Shown: positions 30,299 to 62,803 of the stretch, piece after piece | Layout: every line of letters starts with the position of its first letter | How positions within the stretch are numbered: position 1 is the stretch's first letter | NCBI GenBank assembly: GCA_947484175.1 | Contig: CANKOI010000003.1 | Coordinates: 1-64,000 of the forward strand | Direction of reading: 5' to 3' | Source of the DNA: Deltaproteobacteria bacterium | GTDB taxonomy: Bacteria > Myxococcota_A > UBA796 > SXON01 | DNA length: 64,000 bases | The notes under the pieces: generated by a model | Told to the model about the DNA's origin: nothing | Database searches by the model: none | Seen by the model: only the letters and a program-made list of their open reading frames with translations | Program-made: the position numbers and the translations under genes

Positions 30299-30523
30299 AT
30301 GGAGTCGCACGAGCTCACCGTGCTTGAGGCGTTGGCCCCTCAAAACGACGAACTTCGGCATCTTTGGGGCCGGCATCAGGGCTACGAACGTGACCTGAAT
30401 CGTCTGGACGGCCTTCGGTACCCTTCCGAGGCCGAGCGGCGCGAGATCGGGCGGCTGAAGCGCGTCAAGCTGCGGGGCAAGGAGCGTATTCAAGCGATTC
30501 TCGACGCTCATCGCAACGTCTGA
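30299..30523 (+). CDS. YdcH-like small protein (DUF465 family)
   Basis: The 74-residue product is one long charged hairpin of helices: HELTVLEALAPQNDELRHLW, then a turn with PSEAERREIGRLK and RVKLRGKERIQAIL. This matches the DUF465/YdcH pattern of small acidic/basic helical proteins of unknown role. AGGAG precedes the ATG by six to seven bases, and a promoter with a palindrome lies upstream. It is an independent transcription unit after tsaB. Confidence 0.8.
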   Translation: MESHELTVLEALAPQNDELRHLWGRHQGYERDLNRLDGLRYPSEAERREIGRLKRVKLRGKERIQAILDAHRNV

Positions 30524-30540
30524 CTCAGACGGACGTTGAT

Positions 30541-30810
30541 GCGGCTCGCCGCGCAGGACGCGGCGCCGTTGGGGCGGAGGTCCCTGGCCAGCCGGCAGTC
30601 TCGGAAGGAGCAGCGTGAGGAAAATCCGGTGTTGGCGCGGGGTCCTGCCGCTATTGGCCGCCCCTGCGCTCGCCCCGCAGCGGGGCTCGGTCGGGACGGC
30701 CAACAGCGTCACCCAGCCCGTCACCTCCCCGTCCAACCGCAGTGCCCAGCGAGGAGGTGCCGGGCTGCCCAAGGACTCCGCGAGGCTTGCTGCAGCGGCT
30801 CCGCACGGAG
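30541..30810 (+). repeat. 270-nt dispersed structured element, copy A
   Basis: This element fills most of the gap between the ydcH-like gene and the semialdehyde-dehydrogenase-like gene. It aligns base for base, without a gap, to 42611-42880; by hand I count about 210 of 270 matches. It begins with the hairpin CGCCGCG-CAGGA-CGCGGCG (30547-30565) and contains a long central hairpin, 30650-30664 paired with 30693-30707 (13 of 15 pairs). Shared blocks include GGTCCTGCCGC, CGCTCGCCCCGCAGCGG and GTCACCCAGCCCGTCAC. Similarity stops at both ends. Frames through it are open on the minus strand but protein identity is lower than nucleotide identity, so I read it as non-coding. No known family fits. 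Confidence 0.85.
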
Positions 30811-30834
30811 CGTGGGGGGGATAGGGGGGCCCGC

Positions 30835-31842
30835 ATGACGGGTCCGACGATCGCGGTGCTGGGTGCCACGGGCAACGTAGGGGAGGCGCTGCTTGCGCGC
30901 CTCGCGGCCAGCCCGCTTGGGCAGGGCGAGGTGGCCGCGTACGCGAGCCGCGCCACTCGGCGCGAAACCGTGGACTTCGGCGGGCGCACCCTGCATGTTC
31001 GCACGTTGGCGGAGGCCGCCGACTCCGGCGCCAGCTTGGTGTTCTGCGCGCTCCCCCCGGGCCTCGCCCAGCGAACGGTGCCCAGCTTCACGGCTCGGGG
31101 CGCGCTGGTGATCGATGTGGGCAACTCCTGCGCGGGCCTCTTCGCGGGGCCGCTCTGCCTTGGCGATGTGCGCCCCATCGACGAAGCGGCCGTCGCTCGG
31201 GCCGGGGGTCTGCGTACTCCCGGCGCCCTCGGCTGGATGCTCACGACGGTGCTGGCGCCGCTGCTTCCGCTCGGCGCCTGGGGGGTCACGGGCCTCGCGA
31301 ACCTGCCGGTCACCGCGCACGGCCGCCTCGCCACGGAGGAGTTTTCCGAGCAGGTGGTGGCGTCGTTCAACAGCAAGGACCCTCCTCGCCGCCGCTTTCC
31401 CGAGGGCATCGCGTTCGACACGCTCCCCGAGGATGTGGATGCCGGCGAATGGAGCGACCGGGAGAGGAGCGCTGCGGCCGAGGTCTCGGAGCTCCTAGGC
31501 GTGAACCCCGGCCGCATCGGCGTGCAGGTGTGCACCCAGCCCGTTTTCTCCGGGATGACGGCAGCGTTGCACATCCGCGGCGTCGACGACGCGGAGGCTG
31601 CCGAGACGGCCCTGCGAGAGGCGCCCGGCCTCGCTACGGCCGCGCGGATGCGGTCGCTGCGGCCGCGCAAGGTGATGACGAAGGCGCCGGTCTACTTCGG
31701 AGGTGTCCGTGCCGACCCCGCGGGCGATGGCATTCACCTCTGGCTGGCGGCGGACAACCTGGCCGGCGCCGGTGCGGCGGTGCCCATCCTGTTGGCTGAA
31801 CGGTTGCTCAACGCCGGCGTTACCACGGAAGTCGACGCATGA
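30835..31842 (+). CDS. Aspartate-semialdehyde dehydrogenase-like protein lacking catalytic residues
   Basis: I start at the ATG giving MTGPTIAVLGATGNVGEALL, a Rossmann NADP-binding motif (335 residues). The middle has ALPPGLAQRTVPSFTARGAL and VIDVGNSCAG as in ASADH. At the place of the catalytic PNCS block the protein has TPGALGWMLTTVLAPL (Cys replaced by Ala). The catalytic GHS near the end reads GMT in QPVFSGMTAALHI. It should therefore not act as a dehydrogenase. It resembles Usg-like paralogues of unknown function. It overlaps the next gene by ATGA. Confidence 0.8.
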   Translation: MTGPTIAVLGATGNVGEALLARLAASPLGQGEVAAYASRATRRETVDFGGRTLHVRTLAEAADSGASLVFCALPPGLAQRTVPSFTARGALVIDVGNSCAGLFAGPLCLGDVRPIDEAAVARAGGLRTPGALGWMLTTVLAPLLPLGAWGVTGLANLPVTAHGRLATEEFSEQVVASFNSKDPPRRRFPEGIAFDTLPEDVDAGEWSDRERSAAAEVSELLGVNPGRIGVQVCTQPVFSGMTAALHIRGVDDAEAAETALREAPGLATAARMRSLRPRKVMTKAPVYFGGVRADPAGDGIHLWLAADNLAGAGAAVPILLAERLLNAGVTTEVDA

Positions 31843-41438: not shown

Positions 41439-41854
41439 CGGCGCACCCGCCGCGCGGTGCCGGCCGCGAGGGGCACCCACCGCTCCGCGAGTACGAAGCG
41501 CTCCATGGTTACGATTCGGAAGCCGAACTCTACCGCTACAGCATCGGCGGAATCGGCCTCCCCTGGGTGATCCTCCACCCAGCGGCGCGTTTCGTGGACG
41601 ACCCACTCCTGCGAACACGGAAACCCATCGGGCCGGATCTGGGCCGGGTCGATCCCTACGAACGCCTCCAACGAGGTGGGGGCCACCTCTTGGCCTGCGA
41701 CCCGCACGCTGAGCACGGCGCCCTCGGTACGCCCGCGAAGTTTTGCGTACATCACGTAGCGGGAGAAGGGGAACCGATCCCCGACGCGCCACGACACGGC
41801 GAAGTACACGGCCAATGCCAGGAGCGCGACGGCGGTATGGGTCAACGCCGACAC
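41435..41854 (-). CDS. Small single-helix membrane protein associated with the HTTM-like gene (second paralogue)
   Basis: I start at the GTG giving VSALTHTAVALLALAVYFAV (139 residues). One N-terminal helix is followed by an extracytoplasmic domain with FPFSRYVMYAKLRGR, VVHETRRWVEDHPG and AVAVEFGFRIVTMERF. The blocks V-ETRRW-DDH and VAV-FG-R match the 42913-43323 product, so this is a paralogue. It overlaps both neighbours (13 nt upstream, ATGA downstream). It probably forms a complex with the HTTM-like proteins. Function unknown. Confidence 0.7.
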   Translation of the reverse strand: MSALTHTAVALLALAVYFAVSWRVGDRFPFSRYVMYAKLRGRTEGAVLSVRVAGQEVAPTSLEAFVGIDPAQIRPDGFPCSQEWVVHETRRWVEDHPGEADSADAVAVEFGFRIVTMERFVLAERWVPLAAGTARRVRR

Positions 41855-42594
41855 GAGCGGCTCCCCACGGCCACGGCGAGCACCGTGAACAGCCAGTCGT
41901 AGTGGTGGAGCCCCATCAGGAGCGAGATGCCGACGTGTAGGAACAGGGCGCCGATGGCCCAGACGGCCCGCAGGCCGGGCCACAGGAACGCGACCGCGCC
42001 GAGCTCGATTACGAGCGTGCCTACGCCGAGGGCGCGGCACACGACCGGGGAGCCCGCCACCCACGTTCTTAGCGGCTCCAGCTCACCGAGTCCGCCGTAG
42101 CCCTGCGCGAGGATGTGAACGCCGAGGTTCGCCTGAGAGGTCCACGCCCAGCCCGACCCGCCGAGCTTCGCCACCCCCGCCAGCAGGTAGCAGGCGGCCA
42201 CGAGGCCGGCGGCGGCGTCGATGCCGGCGCGGTCGCGGCGCTCAGGCGGCACCATCCCCCGGGCCACCGCCATCGCCACCAGGGCCGCACCGGGCAGCAT
42301 GACCGCCCCGTTCGCGCCTTCGTCGCCGGGCCACTGCCACCCCTGCACCGCCGCCCCCGCCGCCAGCAGCGCCGCAAGCGCCACCATCGTCGCTTGCCCA
42401 CCCCGAACCACGAACCACCCCAGTAGAAGGGCGAACACGACCGTGACGGCGGCAGCGGCCACCGGGTGAGTGAGCGGCCCCAGCCACTGGAGCGCCGCCG
42501 GAGCGTGCGGCACCCCCTCCACGCGCTGCACCCGTGCGAGGCTGGCCCAAGCGAAGAGCAGGCCCACGGCTTGGAGCGCGCGGGACGCTCTCAT
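41842..42594 (-). CDS. HTTM-like polytopic membrane protein (first paralogue)
   Basis: The 250-residue protein has about seven helices. AGIDAAAGLVAACYLLAGVAKLGG then SGWAWTSQANLGVHILAQGYGG is shared with the 40668-41438 product. The late VIELGAVAFLWPGLRAVWAI and HVGISLLMGLHHYDW fit HTTM-like sequences, with His pairs that could matter for chemistry. It starts 16 nt from the edge of repeat copy B, which therefore occupies its upstream region. Confidence 0.72.
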   Translation of the reverse strand: MRASRALQAVGLLFAWASLARVQRVEGVPHAPAALQWLGPLTHPVAAAAVTVVFALLLGWFVVRGGQATMVALAALLAAGAAVQGWQWPGDEGANGAVMLPGAALVAMAVARGMVPPERRDRAGIDAAAGLVAACYLLAGVAKLGGSGWAWTSQANLGVHILAQGYGGLGELEPLRTWVAGSPVVCRALGVGTLVIELGAVAFLWPGLRAVWAIGALFLHVGISLLMGLHHYDWLFTVLAVAVGSRSCRR

Positions 42595-42610
42595 GCGGCC
42601 GGTCCTCGGT

Positions 42611-42880
42611 CGGGCTCGCCGCGCAGGACGCGGCGCCGTGGGGGCGAAGGTCTCTTGCCACCCGACAGCGGTTGTCGGAGGCGCGTTTGGAAAAGCCAGG
42701 GTTGGCGCAGGGTCCTGCCGCAGGTGGCCGCGCCTCCGCTCGCCCCGCAGCGGGCCTCGGTCGGCGCGGCCACCTGCGTCACCCAGCCCGTCACCGTTCC
42801 GTCCAACGGCGGCAGCCGACCAGAAGTCGCTTGGCTGTCAAGAGACTCCGCTGGGCTTGCTGCTGCGGCTCGCCACAGGG
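42611..42880 (+). repeat. 270-nt dispersed structured element, copy B
   Basis: This copy aligns without gaps to 30541-30810 at about 78% identity. Its central hairpin is perfect: 42720-42734 pairs with 42763-42777 (15 of 15, GCAGGTGGCCGCGCC with its complement). Three of these pairs differ from copy A on both sides and keep pairing. The 5' hairpin CGCCGCG-CAGGA-CGCGGCG is identical. A second small stem (CCGACA/TGTCGG, near 42662) is not kept in copy A. The element is in the same plus orientation as copy A but its neighbours are minus-strand genes, so it is not a shared leader of one gene family. Confidence 0.85.
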
Positions 42881-42912
42881 CGCGTTCCTGCGCGAATCGC
42901 AAGCTGAGCTTC

Positions 42913-43323
42913 TCACCGCCCCCGCCGCGCGCTTCCCGTAGCGTCGATCCGGTCGGTGGTGACGATGTCTCCGCCCTCCGAGAAGTGGAACACCCGCAGG
43001 CCCACCGCAACGGTCACCGGGCCACCCGCACCCTGATGGTCGTCCAGCCACCGGCGCGTTTCGACGAACCGATGGGCCACAGGTGAGGTGTAGCCGGGAT
43101 GGTCAACGTCGACCTGGGCGCCGGGGAGGGCTGCGAAGTCGACGAAGTCCGTGGGCTCGGAGAGAATGCCATCGGCCACGAAGATCGGCACGGCGGCCGG
43201 CGGCTGAACGAGCGGAAAGCTGAAGGCGGGAAAGCGCACGAAGGGCACGCCCCCGCCGACTCCCAGCGCGAGGAGAACGTACGCAGCGAACGGGAGCGCG
43301 GCGGTCGTCGGTGGCGCCACCAT
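42913..43323 (-). CDS. Small single-helix membrane protein (first paralogue)
   Basis: The 136-residue protein has an N-terminal helix (TAALPFAAYVLLALGVGGGV), a strand-rich domain with HRFVETRRWLDDHQG and VTVAVGLRVFHFSEGGDIV, and a basic tail. It is a paralogue of the 41435-41854 product. It starts 14 nt after the clpA stop, so it may be transcribed with clpS-clpA, and repeat copy B follows its 3' end. No family name is recognised. Confidence 0.68.
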   Translation of the reverse strand: MVAPPTTAALPFAAYVLLALGVGGGVPFVRFPAFSFPLVQPPAAVPIFVADGILSEPTDFVDFAALPGAQVDVDHPGYTSPVAHRFVETRRWLDDHQGAGGPVTVAVGLRVFHFSEGGDIVTTDRIDATGSARRGR

Positions 43324-43336
43324 GCCGGAACCGCGC

Positions 43337-45610
43337 TCAGTCGGCAGCGGTGGCGAAGTCGAACGTCACCTTGCCGTCGGCGAGGCCCGCCTCCACGCTG
43401 CCGCCCTTGGCCAGGCGACCGAAAAGTAGCTCGTCGGCGAGCGGTTTCTTGAGGTGCTCTTGAATGACGCGGCTCATCTCGCGCGCACCGAACTCCGGCT
43501 TGTAGCCTTCGTTGCCGAGCCACTCGCGCAGCTCGGGCGTGATCCGCAAAGTGACGTCGCGCGACTGGAGCTGCGCGCTCAGCTCGCGCACGAACTTGTC
43601 GACGACCTGGAGGATCACGGGGCGGCTGAGCGCGGCGAACACCACGCTGCCGTCGAGCCGATTGCGGAACTCCGGGGGAAAAACACGCGTGATCGCTTCG
43701 GAGACCTTCCCCTCCACCCCCGGAGCCGAGAAGCCCACGGAGCCCTTCGCGGCTTCTCGCGCCCCGGCGTTCGTCGTAAGAATGAGCACCACGTTGCGGA
43801 AGTCGGCCTTCTTGCCGTTGTTGTCGGTCAACGAGGCGTTGTCCATCACCTGAAGCAGGATGTTGAAGATCTGCGGATGCGCCTTCTCCAGCTCATCCAG
43901 CACGAGCACGACGTGGGGGTTGCGCGCCACGGCCCCGGTGAGCAGCCCTTCCTGGTCGAACCCGACGTAGCCGGGGGGGGCCCCGATCAGGCGCGAGACG
44001 GTGTGGGACTCGCTGTACTCCGACATGTCGAAGCGCAGGAAGGTGACGCCCAGCACCTCGGCGAGCTGCTTGGCCAGCTCGGTCTTGCCTACACCGGTGG
44101 GGCCAGAGAACAGGAAGCAGCCGACCGGCTTGTTGGGGGAGCCGAGCCCAGCGCGGTTCAGCTTGATGACCGAGCTGATCGCGTCGATCGCCTCGTCTTG
44201 CCCGAAGATGCGCTCCTTGAGCTCCCGCCCCAGCGTCTGCAAGTTCTGGGTTTCTTCGGCGCTGACACTCTTGGGCGGAATGCGCGCCATGCGCGCCACG
44301 ACGGTCTCCACCTCGGGGAGCCCTACCACTCCGCCCGGGTCGGCTAGCCGGCTGGCCGCGCCGGCTTCATCCACCACGTCGATCGCCTTGTCGGGCAGGA
44401 AACGTTCGTTGATGTAGCGGGCCGAGAGGCGCGCGGCGGCGTCGAGCGCTTCGGCCGTGTACGTGATGCCGTGGTGCGTTTCGTACTGCGAACGCAGCCC
44501 CTCGAGGATGAGCACGGTCTCCTCGACCGAGGGCTCGCCCACCTCGATCGTTTGGAAGCGCCTGGCGAACGCACGGTCCTTGCCGAACGCCTGCCGATAT
44601 TCCTGGTGCGTGGTGCTGCCGATGCAGCGGAGCTCGCCGTTCGCGAGCGCGGGCTTGAGGATGTTCGACGCATCCATCGCGCCTCCGCTCACCGCACCGG
44701 CGCCGATCACCGTGTGGATCTCGTCGATGAACAGGATCGACTCGGGGCTCTCTCGCAGCACGTCGATCACGCCTTTGAGCCGCTCCTCGAAGTCGCCGCG
44801 GTAGCGTGTGCCCGCCACGAGCGCGCCCATGTCGAGCGCGTGGATGATGCAGGGTTTGAGGAGGTCGGGCACCTGGCCTTCGACGATCGCACGCGCCAGG
44901 CCCTCCACGATGGCGGTTTTCCCCACGCCCGCGTCGCCCAGGTACAGGGGATTGTTCTTGCGGCGGCGCGCCAACACCTGAATCGTTCGCTGAAGCTCGG
45001 CGGTTCGGCCGATCAGCGGGTCGATCTTTCCGGCCTTCGCTCGCTCGTTGAGGTTGATGCAGAACTGCTTGAGCGGGTTCGACGCGGGCTTCGTTTCGCC
45101 GGTCTCGCCACCCGCCCCCTCGAGCTCGCGGCGCTCCGGCACCTTGCGCCGGCCGTGGGCGATGAACGAGGTCACGTCGAGCTTCTCGATGCCCTGCTCG
45201 GCGAGCATGTGCACCGCGTGGGAGTCCTCTTCGGAAAAGAGCGCGACCAGCACGTTGGGGCCGCGGATTTCCGTCTTCCCGCTGGACTGCACGTGCAGCG
45301 CGGCGCGGTTCAGCACGCGCCGGAACGCCTCGGTGTGGACCGGCTCTTCCGGGAGCTTGGCCTTCGCCTTGGCCTTCGGCTTCGCCACCGGCTCCGCCAC
45401 CGGGACGGTTTCGAGGGTTTCGAAGAACGCATCGAGCGCCAACTCAATCTGTTTGAGGTCGGCGCCACACGCTTCGAGGCACTCCGACGACGTGGGGTCG
45501 GTGAGGAGCGCGTAGAGCACGTGCTCAAGGGTGATGAATTCGTGGCCGCGTTCCCGAGCCTCGTCGAGGGCCAGGGAAAGGGCAATGCTCAGCTCGCGGG
45601 AGAGGGTCAC
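43337..45610 (-). CDS. clpA: ClpA, AAA+ unfoldase subunit of ClpAP
   Basis: The 757-residue protein has the ClpA N-domain ([20 protein letters not shown]), then two AAA+ modules. The first has Walker [14 protein letters not shown] and Walker [15 protein letters not shown]; the second has [13 protein letters not shown] and [18 protein letters not shown] tripeptide after the second module ([10 protein letters not shown]) is the candidate ClpP-binding loop. It unfolds substrates and feeds them to ClpP, which is not in the window. It overlaps clpS by ATGA, a common order. Confidence 0.97.
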
Positions 45611-45950: not shown

Positions 45951-46026
45951 TGGAGCGGGTGAAGGGAATCGAACCCTCGACAACTAGCTTGGGAAGCTAG
46001 CGCTCTACCAACTGAGCTACACCCGC
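45951..46026 (-). tRNA. tRNA-Gly (anticodon CCC)
   Basis: The minus strand folds as a full cloverleaf. The acceptor stem is GCGGGTG/CACCCGC, the D arm contains GCTCAGTTGGTAGAGC, the anticodon stem is CTAGC/GCTAG around TTCCCAA (anticodon CCC), and the T arm is GAGGG/CCCTT with TTCGATT. CCA is encoded and the discriminator is U. It reads GGG codons. It lies upstream of clpS on the same strand. Confidence 0.95.
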
Positions 46027-59569: not shown

Positions 59570-59579
59570 CGCTCAGCCC
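59563..59579. terminator. Bidirectional hairpin containing both convergent stop codons
   Basis: GGGCTGA-CGC-TCAGCCC is a perfect seven-pair inverted repeat. The purL stop TGA is the end of the left arm and the stop of the convergent MYXO-CTERM gene is the start of the right arm. A transcript end or translation-coupled pause for both genes is plausible. No T tract follows. Confidence 0.5.
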
Positions 59580-62500
59580 CGGCGGCGGCGCGCGACCGCG
59601 AGCGCGGCGAGTGCCAACAGGCCGGCCGGTGCGGCCGCACCGGCCGGCGTCGCACAACCACAGCCGCCCTGCAACTCGCCGGGCGCAGTGATGTCGATCG
59701 CCTTGTCGTCGTCGGGCGCGTTGCCGCTGTCATCGCTCCCGTCGGTATCGGAGGTGGCGGTGTCCTCGCCCGTGTCTCCGGTGTCGGCGCCCTCGCCAGT
59801 GTGAACTTGGTCCGTGTCCTCGTGGATCGGCTCGTCCTCGCCGTCACAGTCTTGGTCGATGTCGTCCCCCGGCGTTTCCCGCGCCCCCGGGTACACGGTC
59901 GCGTCGGCATCGTTGCAGTCGTCCGTCGGGTCTTCTGCGGTCGCTTCGCCGGGGTCGTCGCAGTCGAGGTCGATGCTGGCCACCGTGCTCAAAGCGTCGC
60001 GACGGTACCCGTCGCCGTCGGCGTCCACCCCGCATAGCTCGCCGCCGTCACAGTCCTGGTCCACGCCGTCGGACAGTCCTTCCACCGCTCCTACGTGCAC
60101 GTTGGCATCGGCGTCGTTGCAGTCGTCGCCGCCGTAGGCCAGGTCGTCGTGCCCATCGCCGTCCGCGTCGAAGTCCGAGGCTCCGTCGCAGTCCGAGTCC
60201 ACTCCGTCATACCAAGCGTCCGGGGTGCCCGGGTACACGTCGGCGTCGTTGTCGTCGCAATCGCTCCCGCCAACCGCCGCCGCGTCGTACCCGTCCCCGT
60301 CCACGTCGGTGAGATCGGCGCCATCGCAGTCCTGATCGACGCCGTCGTAGGGCGTCTCCGTGCCCGCGGGCGAGGAGGACGCATCCGCGTCGTCACAGTC
60401 GTCCGCGTTGGAGACGTAGCCGGTGGGTTCGTCACACGCATCGGTGGTGACGGCGGGGTCGCCATAGCCGTCGCCATCGGCGTCCGCATACCAGGGAACG
60501 GCGTCCACGGCCGCCACGTCTACGCTGCCGTCGCAGTCGTCGTCCACGCCGTTGCAGGACTCCACGGCGCCCGGGTTGACCGCTGCGTCGTCGTCGTCAC
60601 AATCACTCCCCGCGATGTACCCGTCCCCGTCCGCATCCCACGCGGAAGCCCCGCCGCCTCCGTACGCGCCAATGTCCGACACCGTCCCGTCCGGATCGAG
60701 GTGGGCAGGGTGGCCGACATCGATGTTGGCGGAGCCGGCCGCGAGGGTAAGATCGTCGTTGTCACAGTCCCCGTCGGCGCTGTAGCTCACGAAGCCGGGC
60801 GCGCCGGTGTGGTTTCCGCCCGTCGTGGTGGAGAAGGTGAAGTAGCCGCTGCGGTCGTTGGTGGTGTTCACGTACCAGTCGTTGTAGGTGACATCCGAGC
60901 CCGATGCGGACGCCGAATCGGCCGCGTACACCCCATCGCCGTCGAAGGAATAGGCGACGATGTTGTTGGTTACCTCGGCGCTGGTGTAGAGCGCGTACCA
61001 GCCGCCGCCATAGCCCCCAGCCTCGTTTCCGACCAAGGTGTTGTTCAGGATGTCGAGAGAGGCGAGGCTGTAGCTGTACAGTGCCCCTCCCGACGCGGTC
61101 GCCTCGTTCTCCACGAATACGTTGTTCGCGATGTCCTGGGTGCTGGACACCACCGACGAGCCGTACACCGCTCCGCCATAGGCCGCGGTGTTGGCGCAGA
61201 ACTGGTTGGCGTCCACCTCGAGGTCCGTCGTGTAATAGGCGTAGATGGCGCCCCCGTAATAATAGCCGCCCGCGCTGTTACGCTGGAAGGAGCTGCGGCT
61301 CACGGACGTTCCGGCGGTGTAGGTCACGGCGAGTGCGCCCCCGTGGTAGCCTGCACTGTTGCCACTGAAATCAGTGGACTCGATGTCCAGATCGCTGGCG
61401 CCGTAGGTGGTTGCCGACTGGTAGAGCGCGCCGCCGCTCCCGTAGGTCGTGCCGTTGTCACGAAAGGAGGAGGCGGAAACGGACAGGTCGCTGCCGGTAC
61501 TGGAGTACAAGGCGCCGCCGTCGTAGTAGCTGCTGTTGCTGGAGAAGGTGCTGCCGCTGATCAGGGTGTCGGTGGTGACGAGCGACAGCGCGCCACCGTA
61601 CCCGTACGTGGAACGATTGTCGTCGAACACCGTTTCGTCCATCATCAGGTCGCCCGTCAGCGTGGACGTGTACAGGCCGCCACCACTGTAGTAGGCGACG
61701 TTGTCGGAGAATACACAACCGTCCACCTCCAGCCCGCCGGAGCTCACGAACGCTGCACCCCCATACCCGTAGGTTCCGGTGTTGCTGCCAAACAGGGTGC
61801 CGTCCAACACTACGTCGGTCACGCCCGAAAGGTACAACGCGCCGCCATAATAGTAGGCGATATTGCCGGTGAACTCCCCATCGGTGAGCACGAGGCTCGC
61901 GGCCGCGGTCGCGTAGATCGCGGCCCCGTGGTACCCGTAGTTGTCGGTAAACGAAGGCGAATCCAAGTCCACAGTGGCGGACGCGGCCACGTACACCGCC
62001 CCGGAGTAGCCGGACGTGTAATAATAGGAGTAGTTGTCGTCGAGTTGGTCGTGGCTTCCGGTCCACGCGGCGCCCGCTCCGACATACAGCGCGTTCCCAT
62101 GGGTGTAATACCCCCGATTGGAGGACCAAACGGTGTCTGCCGAGCTCAGGGACGTGCCACTGTCGAGGTACACCGCGCCCCCGTTGTAGTAGCCGGCGTT
62201 GCTGGTGAAGGTGACACCGTCCAGCGTGAGACTCGCCGCCCCCGAGGTGGCGGCGACGTAGATCGCACCCGCATAGTAGGCCCCGTTCGACGTGAAGGTC
62301 GTGTCGGTCACGGCCACCGTCGATGCGGCCTCGGCGTAGATCGCCCCTCCGGCGTACGCGGTGTTGCTGGTGAACGTCGAGCCAGTCACCTCCACGACGC
62401 CACCGCTGTCCACGTACACGCCGCCGCCGTTGAAGCTGGTGGCACCCGACGAGCTCACGGCTAACGTGTCCAAGGTGAGCGTGGACCCGGACACGTAGAT

Positions 62501-62803
62501 GCCGCGGTAGCCCGTGTTGGTGACGCCGAGGTCGCGCAATTCCACGGACTCTCCGGCGTCCACTGTGACGGCGTTGCTGCAACGGCCGCCCGGTGCGATC
62601 ACCGTGGCGGCCGAACCCGCGCCCACGAGGGTAAGGGACTTGCCGGCCGTGTCGACACACTCGGCCCAGGTGCCGGTGTCGATCTCAAGCGTGTCGCCCG
62701 AGGCCGCTGCCGTAACCGCGCTGGAGATGGTGGTGTACGGCCCCGCGGTGCTCACCACGAGGGTGGCGGCGAAGGAGCGTTCGAGGCTGAGGAGAAGCAA
62801 CAT
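59573..62803 (-). CDS. Secreted beta-helix protein with MopE repeats and MYXO-CTERM tail
   Basis: The 1076-residue product starts MLLLLSLERSFAATLVVSTA. Residues about 20-690 are a right-handed parallel beta-helix of many Ser/Gly/Tyr-rich turns (GGAIYAEAASTVAVTDTTFT). About 700-1000 hold six or more MopE-type metal motifs (DADGDGYIAGSDCDDDDAAV). The tail has a Thr/Asp-rich spacer, then GGCGCATPAG, a helix (LLALAALAVA) and RRRRG: a MYXO-CTERM-type sorting signal that is thought to direct surface anchoring. It is probably a cell-surface adhesin or metal-binding protein. Confidence 0.92.
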   Translation of the reverse strand: MLLLLSLERSFAATLVVSTAGPYTTISSAVTAAASGDTLEIDTGTWAECVDTAGKSLTLVGAGSAATVIAPGGRCSNAVTVDAGESVELRDLGVTNTGYRGIYVSGSTLTLDTLAVSSSGATSFNGGGVYVDSGGVVEVTGSTFTSNTAYAGGAIYAEAASTVAVTDTTFTSNGAYYAGAIYVAATSGAASLTLDGVTFTSNAGYYNGGAVYLDSGTSLSSADTVWSSNRGYYTHGNALYVGAGAAWTGSHDQLDDNYSYYYTSGYSGAVYVAASATVDLDSPSFTDNYGYHGAAIYATAAASLVLTDGEFTGNIAYYYGGALYLSGVTDVVLDGTLFGSNTGTYGYGGAAFVSSGGLEVDGCVFSDNVAYYSGGGLYTSTLTGDLMMDETVFDDNRSTYGYGGALSLVTTDTLISGSTFSSNSSYYDGGALYSSTGSDLSVSASSFRDNGTTYGSGGALYQSATTYGASDLDIESTDFSGNSAGYHGGALAVTYTAGTSVSRSSFQRNSAGGYYYGGAIYAYYTTDLEVDANQFCANTAAYGGAVYGSSVVSSTQDIANNVFVENEATASGGALYSYSLASLDILNNTLVGNEAGGYGGGWYALYTSAEVTNNIVAYSFDGDGVYAADSASASGSDVTYNDWYVNTTNDRSGYFTFSTTTGGNHTGAPGFVSYSADGDCDNDDLTLAAGSANIDVGHPAHLDPDGTVSDIGAYGGGGASAWDADGDGYIAGSDCDDDDAAVNPGAVESCNGVDDDCDGSVDVAAVDAVPWYADADGDGYGDPAVTTDACDEPTGYVSNADDCDDADASSSPAGTETPYDGVDQDCDGADLTDVDGDGYDAAAVGGSDCDDNDADVYPGTPDAWYDGVDSDCDGASDFDADGDGHDDLAYGGDDCNDADANVHVGAVEGLSDGVDQDCDGGELCGVDADGDGYRRDALSTVASIDLDCDDPGEATAEDPTDDCNDADATVYPGARETPGDDIDQDCDGEDEPIHEDTDQVHTGEGADTGDTGEDTATSDTDGSDDSGNAPDDDKAIDITAPGELQGGCGCATPAGAAAPAGLLALAALAVARRRRG

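Follow-up and report, generated by a model that had tools for sequence, protein, structure and literature searches.

Compensatory changes in the central stem and the strand that folds

What keeps the two arms of a hairpin complementary in two diverged copies of a repeat, and what kind of sequence carries that hairpin, are the questions raised by positions 42720-42777 of the window, i.e., the whole stretch of 64,000 nt analysed here. In the copy to which this hairpin belongs (copy B), the central stem is formed by 42720-42734 and 42763-42777, and base-by-base reading bears out the 15 pairs out of 15 of the initial annotation. In the other copy (copy A; central stem at 30650-30707), 30650-30664 and 30693-30707 make 13 of 15 pairs on the plus strand, as had been claimed. 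The two non-pairs (A30653-C30704 and C30661-A30696), described as mismatches that are pairs in copy B, are such on the plus strand only: on the minus strand, both are G-U, and copy A there pairs at 15 of 15 positions. The three double changes reported between the copies (T30652-A30705/A42722-T42775, T30654-A30703/G42724-C42773 and C30662-G30695/G42732-C42765) are exact.

Selection for the stem, which had been suggested from these two copies, is supported by two larger alignments. In a set of 31 copies, drawn from the genome of the window and from others of the genus, a ten-pair stem, taken from a structure that we specified ourselves, was 96.1% paired and showed double changes at nine of its 10 pairs; slid-structure controls were only 35-50% paired, and none of 500 shuffles matched the observed values. 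The second alignment comprised 103 unique cores from five species (the window's own genome, G000, and G002, G003, G004 and G005), aligned by sequence only. Covariation was assessed against a null in which the inferred substitutions were redistributed among columns along the tree, using an approximate R-scape-like script of our own, not R-scape. When all 4851 column pairs were considered, three stem pairs remained significant (E ≤ 0.015); as a set, six of the 12 stem pairs had E < 0.05, with one more at 0.051. The check that had been suggested for the stem, a covariation test on many copies, was thus positive.

The minus strand is the folded strand. Over the 12 stem pairs of the 103 cores, we counted 1000 Watson-Crick, 159 G-U, six A-C and 63 other cells; when a state was counted a single time for a given species and pair, 36 were G-U and six A-C (p = 3e-6). 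The RNAalifold consensus fold reached −79 kcal/mol on the minus strand versus −49 kcal/mol on the plus strand, and the plus-strand fold was rejected as far poorer. Single copies folded on their own had minimum free energies (z about −1) that are uninformative in DNA so rich in G+C. In an alignment of 22 copies from the own genome, the stems vary and the loops between them hardly do, as in a structured nucleic acid.

The initial annotation had left it between RNA and single-stranded DNA. Since G-U is tolerated and A-C is not, on one strand, we favour RNA. That the fold is needed in single-stranded DNA instead, in the manner of IS200/605 or of attC sites, seems improbable to us, even though covariation alone cannot separate the two and a single-strand-only substrate is possible in such systems. 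The tolerance of G-U but not of A-C fits RNA better, and no Y1 transposase, as would go with IS200/605 or with RAYT-linked repeats (REP, PATE), was found in G000, G002 or G004. The ends of the repeat (TACCAAC... and ...GTTGGTA) are unlike the RYYYAAC/GTTRRRY boxes of integron attC, its copies are dispersed over contigs and form no cassette arrays, and IS200/605 would not be expected to give the target duplication present at copy B (see below).

The paired changes could also have come about in the absence of any selection, by quasi-palindrome correction, a mechanism known from imperfect palindromes, which copies mutations from arm to arm and needs no function to create compensatory changes. Such templated mutation would leave no strand bias, predicting equal G-U and A-C on either strand, against the 159 and six observed, which disfavours it. 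Moreover, the loops outside the arms are invariant, and strands about 250 nt apart (P1, below) also covary. We regard this explanation as highly improbable.

A predicted RNA of about 255 nt

The hairpin lies at the centre of a predicted multi-helix RNA of about 255 nt, itself inside an element of about 320 bp. In copy B, this RNA extends over 42616-42871 of the minus strand, with its 5′ end near 42871 (GAGCCGC-A-GCAG) and its 3′ end near 42616 (CTGCGCGGC); in copy A, it is placed at 30546-30801 (minus strand) by the fold and by the two strands of P1, one at 30789-30801 and the other near 30548. Read in RNA orientation, the copies have in common GCAGCAAGCC, close to the 5′ end, and, close to the 3′ end, GGCGCCGCGTCCTGC-NCGGC. 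The conserved core, at 42698-42795 (minus strand) in copy B, is matched by our covariance model R1 and consists of a stem-loop flanked by GGTGACGGGCYGGGTGACG and GGCAGGACCCNNCRCCRAC, in that order, both of which the copies also have in common.

The RNA is closed by stem P1, in which its two ends pair around one bulged base (GCCGN-n-GCAG / CUGC-NCGGC). Inside P1 follow a helix, P2, and then the core hairpin with its invariant internal loops (GGUGACGGGCYGGGUGAC ... GGCAGGACCCNNCRCC). The full fold comprises 61 pairs, and over the 22 own-genome copies 96.9% of it is paired. Most P1 pairs are invariant within that genome, so the evidence for P1 comes from comparison between species: P1 reads GCCGC/GCGGC in G000, GCCGU/ACGGC in G005 and GGCCGG/CCGGCC in G002 and G004, with further variants such as GCGTCGG/CCGACGC. 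With the partners shuffled, the share of cells in which its five outer pairs form drops from 88% to 73%, in a register that fits G003 less well. Both strand-specific selection on a fold and conservation between species of the genus are shown.

A long-range pairing of the conserved box GCAGGAC with GTCCTGC was considered and dropped as the main model: about 40% of own-genome copies change the A of the first box, while the partner box remains unchanged, and the CTGC of the latter closes P1 instead. No clear fit was obtained for a tandem-GA (k-turn) reading of the inner loop. Searches of the window and its relatives against Rfam, at gathering and permissive thresholds, matched the RNA to no family; the only matches seen were tRNA-related, plus two sub-threshold chance hits.

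A dispersed element with inverted ends and empty sites

A DNA search of the own genome, a draft of 4.37 Mb in 167 contigs (94.7% complete), returned 46 matching stretches at about 40 separate places, which are full or partial copies. Twenty-two full or near-full ones (copy B, copy A and 20 others) could be aligned, with indels across the alignment; as far as these indels tell, the element has no conserved coding capacity, and it is short and multi-copy, as MITEs are. The contigs C59, C151, C52, C8 and C89 of G000 end inside or beside copies: assembly was probably interrupted by the repeat, and the true copy number is probably higher.

With at most 44 candidates scored per genome, the core covariance model gave lower bounds of at least 29 copies in G000, 33 in G002, 36 in G003, 22 in G004 and 39 in G005, and of at least three, two and one in the same-genus genomes G006, G007 and G009. 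Three more genomes of the genus yielded no core match, one of which (G001) did have a DNA match. None of 83 genomes outside the genus was matched by this model, which may miss distant relatives. When GTDB genomes were scanned for an exact pattern, a single match turned up, limited to 23 hairpin bases, which we take as chance. Searching the published literature for this repeat, we found nothing. The sequences of the arms differ species by species, a sign that amplification was separate. In related species, copies or half-copies also occur in tandem, with a period of about 240-290 bp (L051, L072 and L059/L093/L102, in G003, G004 and G006).

Copy B is a whole element of 319 bp at 42594-42912, its limits supported by the 22-copy alignment and by the intact junction in three relatives, and its orientation (minus strand) given by the RNA. 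In G002, G003 and G005, the two flanking genes overlap at a bare RTGA (GTGA or ATGA); the orthologous empty sites read CGGTGAGGG (G002), CCGTGACG (G005) and CGATGAAG (G003). By comparison with these, the window carries a 3-bp target duplication, TCA on the plus and TGA on the minus strand, at 42591-42593 and again at 42913-42915. Along the coding strand, the junction is CGG-TGA-(319 bp ending in A)-TGA-GAG. The right duplication is the stop codon of the gene at 42913-43365, and the TG of the left one now belongs to the ATG with which the gene at 41842-42594 starts. Insertion has kept the stop of the upstream gene and turned the downstream GTG start into ATG, the A of which is supplied by the element's own end.

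Copy A (30524-30813, minus strand; right boundary approximate) is, by sequence and alignment, truncated at its right end on the plus strand, where the host spacer GGGGATAG...ATG persists. It is situated between a small DUF465-like gene (30299-30523) and the aspartate-semialdehyde-dehydrogenase-like gene that directly follows it (30835-31842), neighbours that stay together in nine further genomes of the genus; in nine relatives the orthologous site lacks the element and has short spacers of the same kind. Since copy B is sense to its neighbours and copy A antisense, a riboswitch or leader function is disfavoured.

The element has terminal inverted repeats, 10-16 bp long in young copies of G000 (TACCRAYTGA), G005 (TACCGACTGAGCCTGT) and G003 (TACGGTYTGACCCTGA) and eroded in many others, including copy B. 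TNA, mostly TGA or TCA, flanks it on both sides. The flanks are equal at five further copies (TGA/TGA at L011, L019 and L170; TCA/TCA at L020 and L151) and unequal at L012 (TAA/TCA) and L024 (TAA/TGA), bearing in mind that a stop codon of an adjacent gene may look like a TNA flank. A target site duplication is thus seen as TGA at copy B against its empty sites and in the five equal-flank copies. The empty sites and the one clear 3-bp duplication show that the element is mobile.

There are also internally deleted copies that keep both ends. In four of these in the own genome (L222, L226, L232 and L233; contigs C8, C20, C58 and C71), the central hairpin is absent; the join in L226 and L232 falls on short repeats (CTGC..), which is what slippage over a palindrome would leave, and L233 is only about 75 bp long. 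The terminal repeat TACCRAYTGANC is the complement of the tRNA D-arm (GCTCAGTTGGTA), as found at 46006-46017 of the window and in other tRNA genes; the likeness is probably a coincidence, and it yields false hits.

Conservation of the whole fold, with invariant loops, across several species would suit a family of host small RNA genes, trans-acting regulators multiplied and kept for the benefit of the cell and not of the element. The tens of copies with varied neighbours and orientations, their presence or absence at orthologous sites, the internally deleted copies and the lack of a core match in the 83 genomes from outside the genus make this an improbable reading. We rather conclude, with a probability of roughly three in four, that the hairpin belongs to a MITE-like, non-autonomous mobile element that carries a conserved structured RNA on the minus strand. 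A transposase acting in trans would recognise the inverted repeats, and the element has, on this reading, multiplied independently in several species of a single genus, reaching tens of copies; by duplicating TGA, it could land on stop codons and enter overlapping stop/start junctions, leaving both genes unbroken.

Mobility machinery and related repeats

The own genome contains three DDE_Tnp_1 fragments, near which matching inverted repeats were not found; this counts against a MITE-like element, as do the unequal flanks of some copies and the eroded repeats of many. An autonomous element with the same ends was not found in this draft, in which DDE_Tnp_1 was the one family of DDE transposases searched, and a pattern search with the terminal repeats returned only copies of the element, tRNA D-arms and chance matches. 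For a HEARO or another guide RNA of IscB or TnpB, the own genome showed no IscB above the cut-off and no TnpB, and Rfam gave no match. The machinery may have been lost, may be missing from the draft or may be of another family. Some groups of the IS5 family duplicate TNA, which offers a lead.

Another origin would be retron-like, with the inverted repeats as a1/a2, the RNA as msr-msd and spread by reverse transcription. The closed, strand-specific RNA with inverted ends would suit it, and proteins of the window match myxobacterial models (MYXO-CTERM and MXAN_2562), which suggests a Myxococcota-like host. At 59576-62803 (minus strand), the window encodes a large surface protein that carries POMP repeats together with a MYXO-CTERM sorting signal. 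There is reportedly a precedent in the msDNA-like repeats of the myxobacterium Nannocystis exedens (Lampson and Rice, 1997), repeated and structured like ours and from a probably related host group; those repeats are said to be tied to a retron reverse transcriptase (RT). That study is cited in PMC6868368. However, no RT domain was found in the own genome (RVT_1, at 94.7% completeness), G003 or G006. The sister species G004 and G005 do have four RT genes (L078-L081), none adjoining a listed copy: those of G004 and two of the three of G005 lie on contigs without listed copies, and the third, on contig C2 of G005, lies some 22 kb away from a listed core. The precise 3-bp duplication at copy B and the terminal repeats, which in our reading of one consensus lack the clear G-U bias of the RNA stems, also speak against a retron, which we consider distinctly improbable.

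As to what the RNA does for a mobile element of this sort, we propose as the most likely role, though at less than even odds, a module, transcribed with or from the element, that might bind a protein or shield the transcripts of neighbouring genes, aiding spread or tolerance. It is less likely, and on the whole unlikely, that the RNA is part of the mobility machinery, whether by recruiting a transposase of the host or of a phage, by acting as a ribozyme or by serving as a template for reverse transcription; the spread of a DNA element would then depend on the folded RNA that it carries. Beyond the initial annotation, the analysis adds which strand folds, how large the RNA is, that its carrier is mobile, how far this has spread within the genus and that TGA is duplicated.

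The closest parallels are found in the Bacillus cereus group, where bcr1-bcr18 are group-restricted intergenic repeats of 100-400 bp; bcr1 averages 39 copies per genome, bcr1-bcr3 have been described as MITE-like, and bcr10 and bcr18 have a conserved RNA secondary structure, with about half of the copies transcribed (PMC3446304, PMC6542083). Our element resembles them in being group-restricted, intergenic and MITE-like with a conserved RNA fold, but bcr mobility is tied to TTTAT (PMC3446304, PMC6542083), whereas here the ends are TACC..GGTA, the flanks TNA and the host group a different one, and strand-specific covariation is shown across species. The BOX repeats of streptococci are likewise dispersed, with stable RNA folds and inverted ends that suggest an IS transposase in trans; unlike our element, they are composites of the modules boxA, boxB and boxC with boxB in tandem, and in the BOX study searched we found no covariation or strand-bias evidence of the kind given here (PMC3049150). 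Correia/NEMIS, RUP, ERIC and other bacterial MITEs resemble our element in being intergenic and in their terminal inverted repeats, TA termini, short target duplication and folded transcripts (here a predicted RNA); they are below 200 bp, mostly A+T-rich and form long end-to-end stems (PMC2229807), in contrast to the G+C-rich element of about 320 bp described here, whose multi-helix internal RNA is distinct from its inverted repeats. Small bacterial repeats have often been credited with an RNA function because they fold, but any inverted repeat folds; here, the RNA claim was tested, by joint changes of paired bases between species and by a tolerance, on one of the strands, of G-U but not of A-C. 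The element, thus, provides a clean case in which selection on an RNA within a mobile repeat can be separated from its inverted ends.
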